Shown piece by piece: positions 38,595 through 44,223 of a stretch of 60,248 bases of DNA. The stretch lies in contig VBAW01000017.1 in assembly GCA_005888635.1 (NCBI GenBank), positions 68,537 through 128,784 on the forward strand. Reading direction: 5' to 3'. Source of the DNA: Candidatus Bathyarchaeota archaeon (GTDB lineage: Archaea; Thermoproteota; Bathyarchaeia; 40CM-2-53-6). Both the position numbers and the translations under genes were made by a program. Within the stretch, counting starts at the first letter, position 1, and every line of letters starts with the position of its first letter. The notes under the pieces were generated by a model. It had not been told where the DNA came from and searched no databases. It worked only from the letters and a program-made list of their open reading frames with translations.

Positions 38595-39038
38595 ATGTCG
38601 AGGGCTTTGCTTACGGAAGCACAGCTAATTGATCTCAGTTTAAAAGCGCCGGGACCATTCCGTCTTATGGTTCCGTTGCAGCAGATCGATTCAGGAACGA
38701 TGGCACTGGTCGTTGCCGGCTACGAGCCGCAGTATTCTGATCCTCTGACAATGAATTCAGGCGACGCGCTAAAGATCGTGAAGAGAAGAGACGAAGAATG
38801 GCCTGGATGGGTATTCTGTGAAAGCCAGAGCGGGAGGCGGGGCTGGGTCCCGGAGAAGAGTATCAAGATAGACGGTGAGGCTGCAGTCGCACAGCAGAAC
38901 TACGTGGCACGTGAAGTGACTGTGATGGAGGGTGAGATTGTAAGGATAGAGAGCGTTGAAAGTGGCTGGGCCTGGGTCACAAACATGACCGACGCGACAG
39001 GCTGGGTCCCATTGAAGAACCTGAAAATCGTAGAATAG
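38595..39038 (+). CDS. Tandem SH3-like domain protein
   Basis: 147 aa. Two SH3-type beta barrels are visible: ALVVAGYEPQYSDPLTMNSGD ... WVFCESQSGRRGWVPEKSIKI (residues ~35-92) and QNYVAREVTVMEGEIVRIESVESGWAWV ... GWVPLKNLKI (~97-147), with the ALYDY-like start, the acidic RT/n-Src segments and the GWxP signature. SH3 proteins usually bind Pro-rich peptides or act in signalling. ATG at 38595, 44 bp downstream of the tandem wHTH gene. Confidence 0.75.
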   Translation: MSRALLTEAQLIDLSLKAPGPFRLMVPLQQIDSGTMALVVAGYEPQYSDPLTMNSGDALKIVKRRDEEWPGWVFCESQSGRRGWVPEKSIKIDGEAAVAQQNYVAREVTVMEGEIVRIESVESGWAWVTNMTDATGWVPLKNLKIVE

Positions 39039-39210
39039 TTGTCACCCATTACATTCGCAGGCAAGGATGAGTATGTTCGACAGATGCCCTTCGCGGATTC
39101 ATAACTCGAATAAACTAAACAGTGAGATTCTCTCCTGAGTACAGTTGGACCTTGTTACCCTACTCAAGTTTTTTAGTGTAAGTGTCTGGCTCTTCTGACG
39201 AGATTCATTC

Positions 39211-41457
39211 TTGCAGAGATCGTATGAGCGGTTCAGCTCAGAGGTTCTTGATGCCGCTTCTGCTCCTGTACGATTGCATGTTCTCAAACTACTCGTTTCC
39301 AAGGGTCCTCTTCCCTATACTGAGATAATGTACGAGGCAAAGCTCGATCCTGTACGGGATGCCGGCAAGTTCGTCTACCATCTTAAGACCTTGAGAAAGG
39401 CCGGTCTGGTTTCGATCGAAAAAGGCACGAAAAAGTACAGCGTAACCGAGCTCGGGAAGATTCTGGTCGAGTTCTCGCGGGACCTAGATGAGTACATCGC
39501 CGTAAAGCGCGGCAGACTGTTCGTCCGTACATCCCGTATGGCCATCGAGGAGTTCGACCGCACCAGAATCGCCAGATCCTTAGTGAACGAAGCGAGAATG
39601 CCTCAAACGCTTGCCGATGAAGTGGCGGCGGAAGCGGAAGAGAGACTTCTCAAGTTCGGAATAGTCTATCTCAGCGCTCCCCTTATCAGGGAGCTTGTCA
39701 ACATTATTCTCATTGAAAGGAAGCTAGAAGAGTATCGACACAAGCTCACAAGGCTGGGACTACCTGTCAACGATGTAACGCTGCTACTCCGGGAGGCTGG
39801 CCAGAAACAGCTCGACGCGAACTGGGTCCAGAAATCCGCAGGAGAGAGAGTCATCGAGGAGTATGTTCTGCTCGATAGCCTTCCTCGGGCCACAATTGAC
39901 GCGCACCTAGCGGGCCAGATTCACCTAGAGGACGCCGCCTCATGGATCCTGAAACCGAGCATACTCTTTCACGAAGCCAGCCTCTTCTTTCGAAAAGGGA
40001 CTCCCGCCACCAATCCTCCATCATCTCTTGAAGACGCCTTGGAATCAATTCTGAAGATCCTACGCACAGCAGAACGAGAAGTCTCAAGTGAACAAGTACT
40101 CGACCACTTCAACCTTACACTCGCCCCGTTCATCAGAGGACTCCCGCGCCAGCACGTCCAAGAATCGATCAAACGATTCATGTACGATCTCAACTGGGAC
40201 GGCTTCTCCAACACGATAGCAGCCCAAGTCACAGTAGGATTGGATAATCAAATCCCTGACCATGTCCAGAAACGAGAGGCGGTGGGTCCAAACGGCAAAG
40301 CTGAAGGAATCTACGCCGACTTTTCGAGAGAAGCCGAAGAGCTATTCACAACAGTAATCGCTGCAAGTCTAGAAATTGGTCGTCAACAGCCCATACTCAA
40401 CCCATCAATTGTAGTAAGGAATCCCAGCGGGAAGATCGAGCCTACGGACGAGCTTCTCAACATGGCCTTCGAAAGCTCCGCCAAACACTCCGTTCCCAAC
40501 TTCTTGATGCAATCCTCAGAACAGAACTATTCGATATCGTCCGAGGGACCAATTCTTTTCGAAGACAAAGACGGGACGAAAGGGGCAGGTGCCGTTGTCG
40601 GGACGGTCCAGCTTAACGTGCCCAGAGCCTCCTATGAAGCGTCGGGAAAGGACGAGAGGTTCTTTCAAGCAGTCCAGTCTGGAACCATTGAAGCGGTAAA
40701 GGCTCTACAACTTAGACAGCAAGCCATCGACGAGAGAGTCTCGGAAGGAGTCTTGCCACTCCTAGCATGGCAAGCAGACGGAGGAGCCTACTACGACTCG
40801 ATAAGGGCTCATGGAGAGATAGGCCTAATGGGACTAGCAGAAGCAGTAAAGCATCATACTCGTGCTGAACTCTGGGAAAAGACGAGCTTAGCCTTTGCAA
40901 AGAAGATTGTAGAATCTGCACGACGAGCGGTTAGTGAAGCCGACGCACGCGATATTCGAGTAAGAATCGGGATTCATTCATCTCCTCAAGCCTCAGCCCG
41001 TCTAGCCTCGATCGACGCAGAGAAATTCGGGTTTTCGACTGTTGTCTATCAGGGCTCCAAAAAATACCCGTACTATAACGACACGCCAGGAATTCCCTTA
41101 ACTCAAAAAGTACCCTTTGCGACTCGAGCAGTTATTGAAGGAGAATTACAAAGATCCTTCGACGGAGGTGCACTGCTTCTGTTGATGGTTAGATCTAAGG
41201 TGGACAGTCAGGCCTTGTCAAAGGCTTCGCGAGAACTAAGCGAGGCCGGAGTACGATACTTCACTTTCTCGTCCCAGTATTCGCGTTGCCAACGTTGTTA
41301 CGCTATAAGCGCCGGAGTCAGGGCCAGATGTGATAACTGCGGATACGAACACTTGACAATACTTGCAAAGCTAGGAGGAAGACTTCTTCCATTAGATACT
41401 TGGTCCGAGGCCAGAAAGAGAGACTTGGACCGCGTTATTCCCTACGATTTCTCATAG
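39211..41457 (+). CDS. HTH–ATP-cone–class III RNR-like fusion lacking catalytic cysteines
   Basis: 748 aa in three parts. Residues ~8-85 are an ArsR-like winged helix (HVLKLLVSKGPLPYTEIMYEAKL, in part). Residues ~102-190 are an ATP-cone (IEEFDRTRIARSLVNEA, KLTRLGLPVNDV). The rest resembles anaerobic ribonucleotide reductase NrdD (DAHLAGQIHLED, GTVQLNVPRASYE), ending in a CQRC..CDNC zinc site and KLGGRLLPLDTW where NrdD has the RVxGY glycyl loop. Only four cysteines exist (693, 696, 707, 710), all in the zinc site; the thiyl cysteine of the barrel is absent. A regulator sensing (d)NTPs is the obvious inference. Start TTG 39211, with a T-rich TATA-like box about 39 bp upstream. Confidence 0.8.
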   Translation: MQRSYERFSSEVLDAASAPVRLHVLKLLVSKGPLPYTEIMYEAKLDPVRDAGKFVYHLKTLRKAGLVSIEKGTKKYSVTELGKILVEFSRDLDEYIAVKRGRLFVRTSRMAIEEFDRTRIARSLVNEARMPQTLADEVAAEAEERLLKFGIVYLSAPLIRELVNIILIERKLEEYRHKLTRLGLPVNDVTLLLREAGQKQLDANWVQKSAGERVIEEYVLLDSLPRATIDAHLAGQIHLEDAASWILKPSILFHEASLFFRKGTPATNPPSSLEDALESILKILRTAEREVSSEQVLDHFNLTLAPFIRGLPRQHVQESIKRFMYDLNWDGFSNTIAAQVTVGLDNQIPDHVQKREAVGPNGKAEGIYADFSREAEELFTTVIAASLEIGRQQPILNPSIVVRNPSGKIEPTDELLNMAFESSAKHSVPNFLMQSSEQNYSISSEGPILFEDKDGTKGAGAVVGTVQLNVPRASYEASGKDERFFQAVQSGTIEAVKALQLRQQAIDERVSEGVLPLLAWQADGGAYYDSIRAHGEIGLMGLAEAVKHHTRAELWEKTSLAFAKKIVESARRAVSEADARDIRVRIGIHSSPQASARLASIDAEKFGFSTVVYQGSKKYPYYNDTPGIPLTQKVPFATRAVIEGELQRSFDGGALLLLMVRSKVDSQALSKASRELSEAGVRYFTFSSQYSRCQRCYAISAGVRARCDNCGYEHLTILAKLGGRLLPLDTWSEARKRDLDRVIPYDFS

Positions 41458-42871: not shown

Positions 42872-44223
<1,352 letters not shown>

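Follow-up and report, generated by a model that had tools for sequence, protein, structure and literature searches.

Regulators derived from dead enzymes are known in other pathways, and the ROK repressors and BzdR carry a DNA-binding head on a former metabolic enzyme. How ribonucleotide reductase (RNR) and the supply of DNA precursors are controlled in archaea without NrdR is, to our knowledge, an open question. NrdR, the bacterial RNR repressor, reads ATP versus dATP; its ATP-loaded and dATP/ATP-loaded forms differ in oligomeric state and in DNA binding, and it is described as rare in archaea (PMC9110341).

The protein described here consists of a helix-turn-helix (HTH) head, an ATP-cone and a barrel resembling that of the class III reductase NrdD, and is referred to as the pseudo-NrdD protein. 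No description of a protein with this architecture was found in the literature. It resembles NrdR in that an ATP-cone is joined to a DNA-binding domain and in that the gene often lies beside RNR genes. Unlike NrdR, whose N-terminal zinc ribbon binds DNA, it has a cysteine-free winged helix as its head and a zinc site at the C-terminus, carries a whole dead reductase barrel and occurs in archaea. It shares with class III NrdD the fold, the ATP-cone and the C-terminal Cys4 zinc site, but lacks the CC pair, the partner cysteine and the Gly-Tyr of that enzyme and has the winged helix added; moreover, NrdG2 is absent from 21 of the 28 carriers tested. The winged-helix fold of the head is that of the ArsR/SmtB regulators. 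However, the head of the protein studied contains no cysteine (there is none before residue 693), unlike that of the metal-sensing ArsR/SmtB proteins, and the effector part is a cone and a barrel. As in the ROK repressors and BzdR, the body of a metabolic enzyme appears to have been turned into a regulator of its own pathway, although the enzyme and the pathway are different ones. By the features that define each group, the pseudo-NrdD protein is not an NrdD, an NrdR or a metal-sensing ArsR protein, and in its anatomy and gene linkage it matches what would be expected of an RNR regulator whose body is a dead enzyme. It is very probably a transcription regulator of RNR genes that evolved from NrdD.

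The window, meaning the whole stretch of DNA analysed, is 60,248 nucleotides long. Its nearest named records, among the best 80 of 238 relatives, are Bathyarchaeota MAGs, which places it in the Bathyarchaeia. The gene and its parts are situated as follows.

39168..39177, + strand: AT-rich box, 34-43 bases 5' of the TTG start, probably a TATA box (alignment of upstream regions)
39211..41457, + strand: pseudo-NrdD gene, an open frame with a TTG start encoding 748 amino acids
39241..39495, + strand: ArsR-like winged helix-turn-helix, residues 11-95 (Pfam matches near the cut-off, invariant columns, Foldseek)
39520..39735, + strand: ATP-cone, residues 104-175 (Pfam match, conserved columns)
39736..39822, + strand: linker, YRHKLTRLGLPV..DV region, residues 176-204 (sequence comparison)
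39832..41265, + strand: NrdD-like barrel, residues 208-685 (Pfam NRDD 2.1e-52, Foldseek on the model)
39961..39963, + strand: Ile251, at the place of the second active-site cysteine (alignment with active NrdDs)
40546..40551, + strand: Gly446-Pro447, at the place of the CC pair (alignment with active NrdDs)
41287..41340, + strand: zinc site CxxC-x10-CxxC, residues 693-710 (sequence, alignment)
41365..41391, + strand: remnant of the glycyl-radical loop, AKLGGRLLP, residues 719-727 (alignment)

The sequence ATTTTTTAAA is found at the position of the AT-rich box in most of 18 aligned upstream regions from the same family. The core of the winged-helix head reads LDPxRDAGKF(V/A)YHL. In the ATP-cone, the loop at residues 105-108 is VRTS and differs from the usual form, KRDG. 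The first part of the linker is among the most conserved stretches of the family and resembles the linker of some active NrdDs.

The initial annotation had read the protein as an ArsR-like HTH, an ATP-cone and an NrdD barrel with a zinc site, and this division is confirmed by Pfam and Foldseek. The NRDD model matches residues 208-739 of the window protein (E 2.1e-52) and the ATP-cone model matches residues 104-175 (E 1.3e-5, 26.1 bits against a cut-off of 25.8). Within residues 11-94 the models DUF7347, HTH_20 and HTH_45 score 0.8 to 1.2 bits below their cut-offs; the two ammonia-oxidiser orthologs tested pass the cut-offs of HTH_20, DUF7347, ATP-cone and NRDD. The AlphaFold2 model of the window protein, made from 50 aligned sequences, has a mean pLDDT of 87.6 and a pTM of 0.76. 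Upon comparison of the whole model with the PDB using Foldseek, the first 36 matches were all class III NrdD (best 8p2s_B, E 2.8e-27), in agreement with the barrel fold expected from the earlier reading. A separate model of residues 1-195 (pLDDT 80.0, pTM 0.51) gave ArsR, SmtB and CzrA among its first matches, with E values of 2.5e-3 to 8.6e-3 and TM scores to the target of 0.59-0.80. NrdR (9a6n, 7p37) and other winged-helix families were matched as well; all matches of this part have E values above 0.001, the ArsR/SmtB probability being 1.00.

The gene is linked to RNR genes. Among 121 distinct loci of unequal length, an RNR gene lies within the fetched stretch at 28, in every case downstream and on the same strand; the other 93, which include the relatives of the window, have none, and many of these stretches are short. 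The downstream gene is a class II nrdJ in 17 of the 28 and an active nrdD in 11. It is situated within 570 bases in 25 of them, and the furthest is 1510 bases away. Three stretches (L035, L036 and L037) were cut after the NrdD neighbour had been seen, and two of these genes are also present in stretches of set size (L097 and L100). In family f26 nrdJ starts just downstream at all 46 loci read, and the same is found at the five f58 and two f55 loci read. Nmar_1627 is named as the ribonucleotide reductase of Nitrosopumilus maritimus (PMC4303638), and no paper naming the two neighbouring locus tags was found in the literature.

The window locus itself is not beside an RNR gene. Its neighbours encode an SH3 protein, a Na/H exchanger and then an aspartate/ornithine carbamoyltransferase (42872-43801), which is two genes downstream of the pseudo-NrdD gene. 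A carbamoyltransferase gene of this type is found downstream on the opposite strand in 55 related loci, redundant loci included. In 28 loci the downstream genes include one taken, by eye, to encode the ATCase regulatory chain. The class II NrdJ of the window's genome is encoded on two other contigs that overlap at their ends. A split nrdJ was considered for this genome and rejected as a contig break, the two pieces ending and beginning with the same residues. In three genus mates (G013, G016 and G017; loci L308-L313) nrdJ is an open frame of 1276-1289 amino acids; about 1.1 kb separates the two parts of the match, and the insertion looks like an intein.

A gene in this position could also encode a regulatory subunit that associates with the active reductase, NrdJ or NrdD, and adjusts its activity through the cone, the winged helix then being a protein contact. 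Adjacency to RNR genes would suit such a subunit, as would the similar ATP-cone and linker of some active NrdDs. A search of the window's genome, which is 92% complete, gave no ATP-cone other than that of the pseudo-NrdD protein, so that the NrdJ of this genome has none. However, reductases of two classes adjoin the gene, and two unrelated interfaces would be needed. Furthermore, the winged helix is the most constrained part of the protein in ammonia oxidisers, and the one ammonia-oxidiser NrdJ that was run against Pfam already has a cone. A regulatory subunit is therefore considered unlikely.

Somewhat less likely again is a regulator of other genes, for instance those of pyrimidine or arginine synthesis, for which the RNR linkage would be incidental. 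It would account for the carbamoyltransferase on the opposite strand at the 55 loci and two genes downstream in the window, and for a divergent carbamoyltransferase, named by eye, at four loci of families f32, f36 and f47. Nevertheless, a convergent neighbour shares no common promoter with the pseudo-NrdD gene, and the RNR neighbours are of two classes and are always downstream on the same strand. Regulation of RNR genes remains the preferred reading.

The catalytic residues were counted in 131 non-redundant members of the family aligned with 38 active NrdDs from the same phylum. The members were obtained from 206 head-bearing sequences by leaving out 36 that are cut by the end of the stretch and thinning the remaining 170 to below 90% identity. 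Two of the 40 sequences sorted as active were left out, L073 because it is a truncated part of a family member, and another because its row is cut by the end of the stretch. A sequence was taken as a member if it scored higher with the head-bearing profile than with the active one; since the profiles derive from sequences already sorted by the authors, the residue counts are not wholly independent of the sorting. The same division into members and active enzymes was given by a tree of the barrel alone.

The second active-site, or partner, cysteine is present in 38 of 38 active NrdDs and in none of the 131 members. The CC pair, which holds the thiyl-radical cysteine, is likewise found in all 38 and in no member, a lone cysteine occurring there in 12 of the 131. 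The glycyl-radical position is a glycine in 37 of the 38 active NrdDs and in 13 members, the window protein among them, and the Gly-Tyr at this position is seen in no member. The three zinc-cysteine columns scored are all cysteine in 121 of the 131 members. Six ammonia-oxidiser copies of family f26 that were read end right at the zinc site and have no glycyl-radical loop. In the window protein the only cysteines are residues 693, 696, 707 and 710, all in the C-terminal zinc site, and the CC pair has become Gly446-Pro447, which bears out the initial annotation in placing all four cysteines there and regarding the active-site thiyl cysteine as lost. Its remark that the glycyl loop is changed though a Gly remains is also right for this protein, because Gly723-Arg724 aligns to the glycyl Gly-Tyr. 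Neither a cysteine outside the zinc site nor a known active reductase, either of which it had named as fatal to its reading, was found.

The distribution of the activase was compared in 28 genomes. NrdG2 (TIGR02495) is above the cut-off in seven, weaker radical-SAM matches being present in all 28, and a head-less NrdD is above the TIGR02487 cut-off in the same seven. In the other 21 the pseudo-NrdD protein is the only NrdD-like match; among these 21 are the genome of the window and three genus mates, as well as 13 ammonia oxidisers. AmoA was tested in 12 of the 13, and the remaining one (G322) belongs to the same genus as a tested genome. NrdG of the E. coli type (TIGR02491) was found in none of the 28 genomes at E 1e-20, while 3 of 14 control genomes were positive. 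In the window's genome, at 92% completeness, no NrdG-type activase is above the cut-off and the radical-SAM match is weak. In two of the seven genomes (G038 and G058) the head-bearing copy just passes the NCBIfam equivalog cut-off for NrdD (335.6 and 326.5 against 326.35 bits), but these copies lack the active-site residues.

Judged by its residues, the pseudo-NrdD protein does not function as a class III reductase. The whole NrdD fold, the retained zinc site and the two members just above the equivalog cut-off might be taken to indicate a working enzyme with unusual chemistry. This is very improbable, since all cysteines of the window protein belong to the zinc site, the needed residues occur in none of the 131 members, the window's genome has no NrdG activase above the cut-off, and the protein occurs in ammonia oxidisers, which are aerobes. 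An active reductase was rejected on the residue counts and the activase distribution. The distinction matters for annotation, in that NrdD models match the pseudo-NrdD protein and two members pass the equivalog cut-off. If the protein is counted as a class III RNR, aerobic archaea are credited with an oxygen-sensitive enzyme that they lack.

Compared with two relatives, the gene has a dN/dS ratio of about 0.08 (0.040/0.513 and 0.093/1.125); a third comparison was saturated. In view of this ratio, of a copy in 24 of 30 good-quality relatives and of a head that is near-identical across the ammonia oxidisers, a decaying pseudogene, which the drifting barrel and the shortening of the protein in some lineages might suggest, is rejected as hardly conceivable.

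The family is under purifying selection, with the head and cone most constrained and the barrel drifting. Among 27 ammonia oxidisers (20 from f26, 5 from f58 and 2 from f55) the mean pairwise identities of head, cone and barrel are 0.955, 0.812 and 0.542; among 78 Bathyarchaeia they are 0.554, 0.698 and 0.385. The order of cone and barrel is reversed in 15 active NrdDs whose cone is similar, the cone having 0.536 and the barrel 0.591. Columns that are at least 90% identical across the 131 members make up 14 of 85 for the head, 27 of 87 for the cone with the linker, and 17 of 481 for the barrel. It is because of this inverted constraint, together with the RNR linkage (28 of 28 downstream on the same strand), that a regulator is favoured.

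A tree of the barrel alone, computed for 48 members and the 38 active enzymes, places the members on one side of a single branch with an SH-aLRT of 100. The tree was obtained by a quick search, is unrooted and has seven long branches, and for this reason is consistent with a single origin of the family without proving it. A similar cone and linker are present in some active archaeal NrdDs, which suggests that the family descended from that kind of enzyme. An enzyme would here have been turned into a regulator of the same reaction, and the probable course can still be traced, from active relatives that have a similar cone, through addition of the head and loss of catalysis, to drift of the barrel.

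The initial annotation had proposed a repressor that uses the old barrel as a sensor of dNTPs or substrate. The analysis favours a regulator of RNR genes, on linkage and constraint, and lends no support to the sensing role of the barrel. There are 41 positions that at least 95% of the active NrdDs have in common. At least 80% of members retain 12 of these; the other 29 fall below that level, four of them being still at 70-77%. The barrel is the least conserved part of the protein, and in some lineages the whole protein has shrunk to 535-618 amino acids. Substrate sensing by the barrel is disfavoured because so many of its positions have been lost, and the ATP-cone is the likelier sensor.

By analogy with NrdR, the regulator probably operates in the following way. 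The winged helix would bind an operator at an RNR gene, and the ATP-cone would read ATP versus dATP and change the oligomeric state or the DNA affinity of the protein. The old barrel and zinc ribbon would serve mainly as a dimerisation scaffold. With the barrel dimer holding them, the heads would then bind or leave the nrdJ or nrdD operator according to the balance of ATP and dATP. A more far-reaching reading, which we regard as tentative and rather doubtful, is that the protein could be the general RNR master regulator for much of the phylum searched, a counterpart of NrdR that arose independently when the reductase itself became a transcription factor. The barrel might then bind dNTPs at the specificity site of the dimer interface and integrate the ATP/dATP signal of the cone with the other dNTPs to set nrdJ and nrdD transcription. 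A concrete candidate for an RNR regulator can be named for the Bathyarchaeia and the ammonia oxidisers, some of which are cultured.

Between the pseudo-NrdD gene and nrdJ in family f26 there is a conserved block, TATGAANTTCATA, followed by TCAA-N5-TTGA. In the 46 loci the first part is exact in 21, has one or two mismatches in 11 and three or four in 14. The TCAA-N5-TTGA part is exact in 24 of the 46 and loosely present in 41; the loose expression matched 42, at one of them first at another place. In 16 of the 21 copies holding TATGAANTTCATA the reading frame that opens at its ATG is closed by a stop codon ahead of nrdJ, showing that the block is not simply coding. The block contains two imperfect palindromes with centres 22 bases apart; their palindromicity, determined on 40 of the 46 loci, is 0.621 and 0.579, compared with a 95% level of 0.557 and a maximum of 0.639 in a column-shuffle control, which is a modest signal. 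A search of the 12 genomes of one genus with the whole-block pattern, allowing up to three mismatches, gave one copy in 11 genomes and none in the twelfth, and a reversed control pattern gave no match in these genomes. TATGAANTTCATA does not precede the pseudo-NrdD gene itself in any of the 46 f26 loci, and visual inspection of the f58 and f55 loci showed no copy of the block. Up to E 1, no Rfam match to an RNA element was found before nrdJ in six loci. Before the window gene (span 38960-39330) no inverted repeat of at least 7 bases within 40 bases was found. The f26 block is suggestive of an operator, and should be regarded as a candidate.

The family spans the Bathyarchaeia, the ammonia-oxidising archaea and other lineages of the phylum. 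A near full-length copy is present in 47 of 61 genomes, namely the window's own and 60 relatives. The rest comprise two genomes with head-bearing pieces, one with a copy cut at a contig end, six that match through a head-less NrdD only and five without a match. Among the 30 genomes of good quality, 24 hold the pseudo-NrdD form and six a head-less NrdD only; because these six have the head-less NrdD alone, the pseudo-NrdD protein is not required for NrdD. A search with the head and cone gave 263 matches in 398 of the phylum's genomes; as these include weak matches to a single domain, the figure does not stand for the number of members. Of 22 genomes tested for AmoA, 14 have it, and all of these belong to families f26, f55 and f58; these families are ammonia oxidisers and carry the pseudo-NrdD protein. 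Among phage records 46 match, none over more than 80% of the query, and the ten matches listed are ordinary NrdD with 21-22% identity.

Several copies depart from the usual form or from the expected source. Shortened members of 535-618 amino acids, in which the barrel is further reduced, occur in families f32, f36, f47 and f45 (L247-L251 and L235), and at four of these six loci, in families f32, f36 and f47, a carbamoyltransferase gene, named by eye, is divergent. At four other loci (L236-L239) proteins of 218-469 amino acids match the winged-helix head alone, one of the frames being open at a contig end. A near full-length copy in a record titled Njordarchaeum (L095) reflects either presence outside the phylum or misbinning. 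The record entitled 'bacterium isolate Centralia_MAG_577' (L078) encodes a copy 78% identical to the window protein, and its title is probably wrong, since the protein that it resembles so closely is archaeal.
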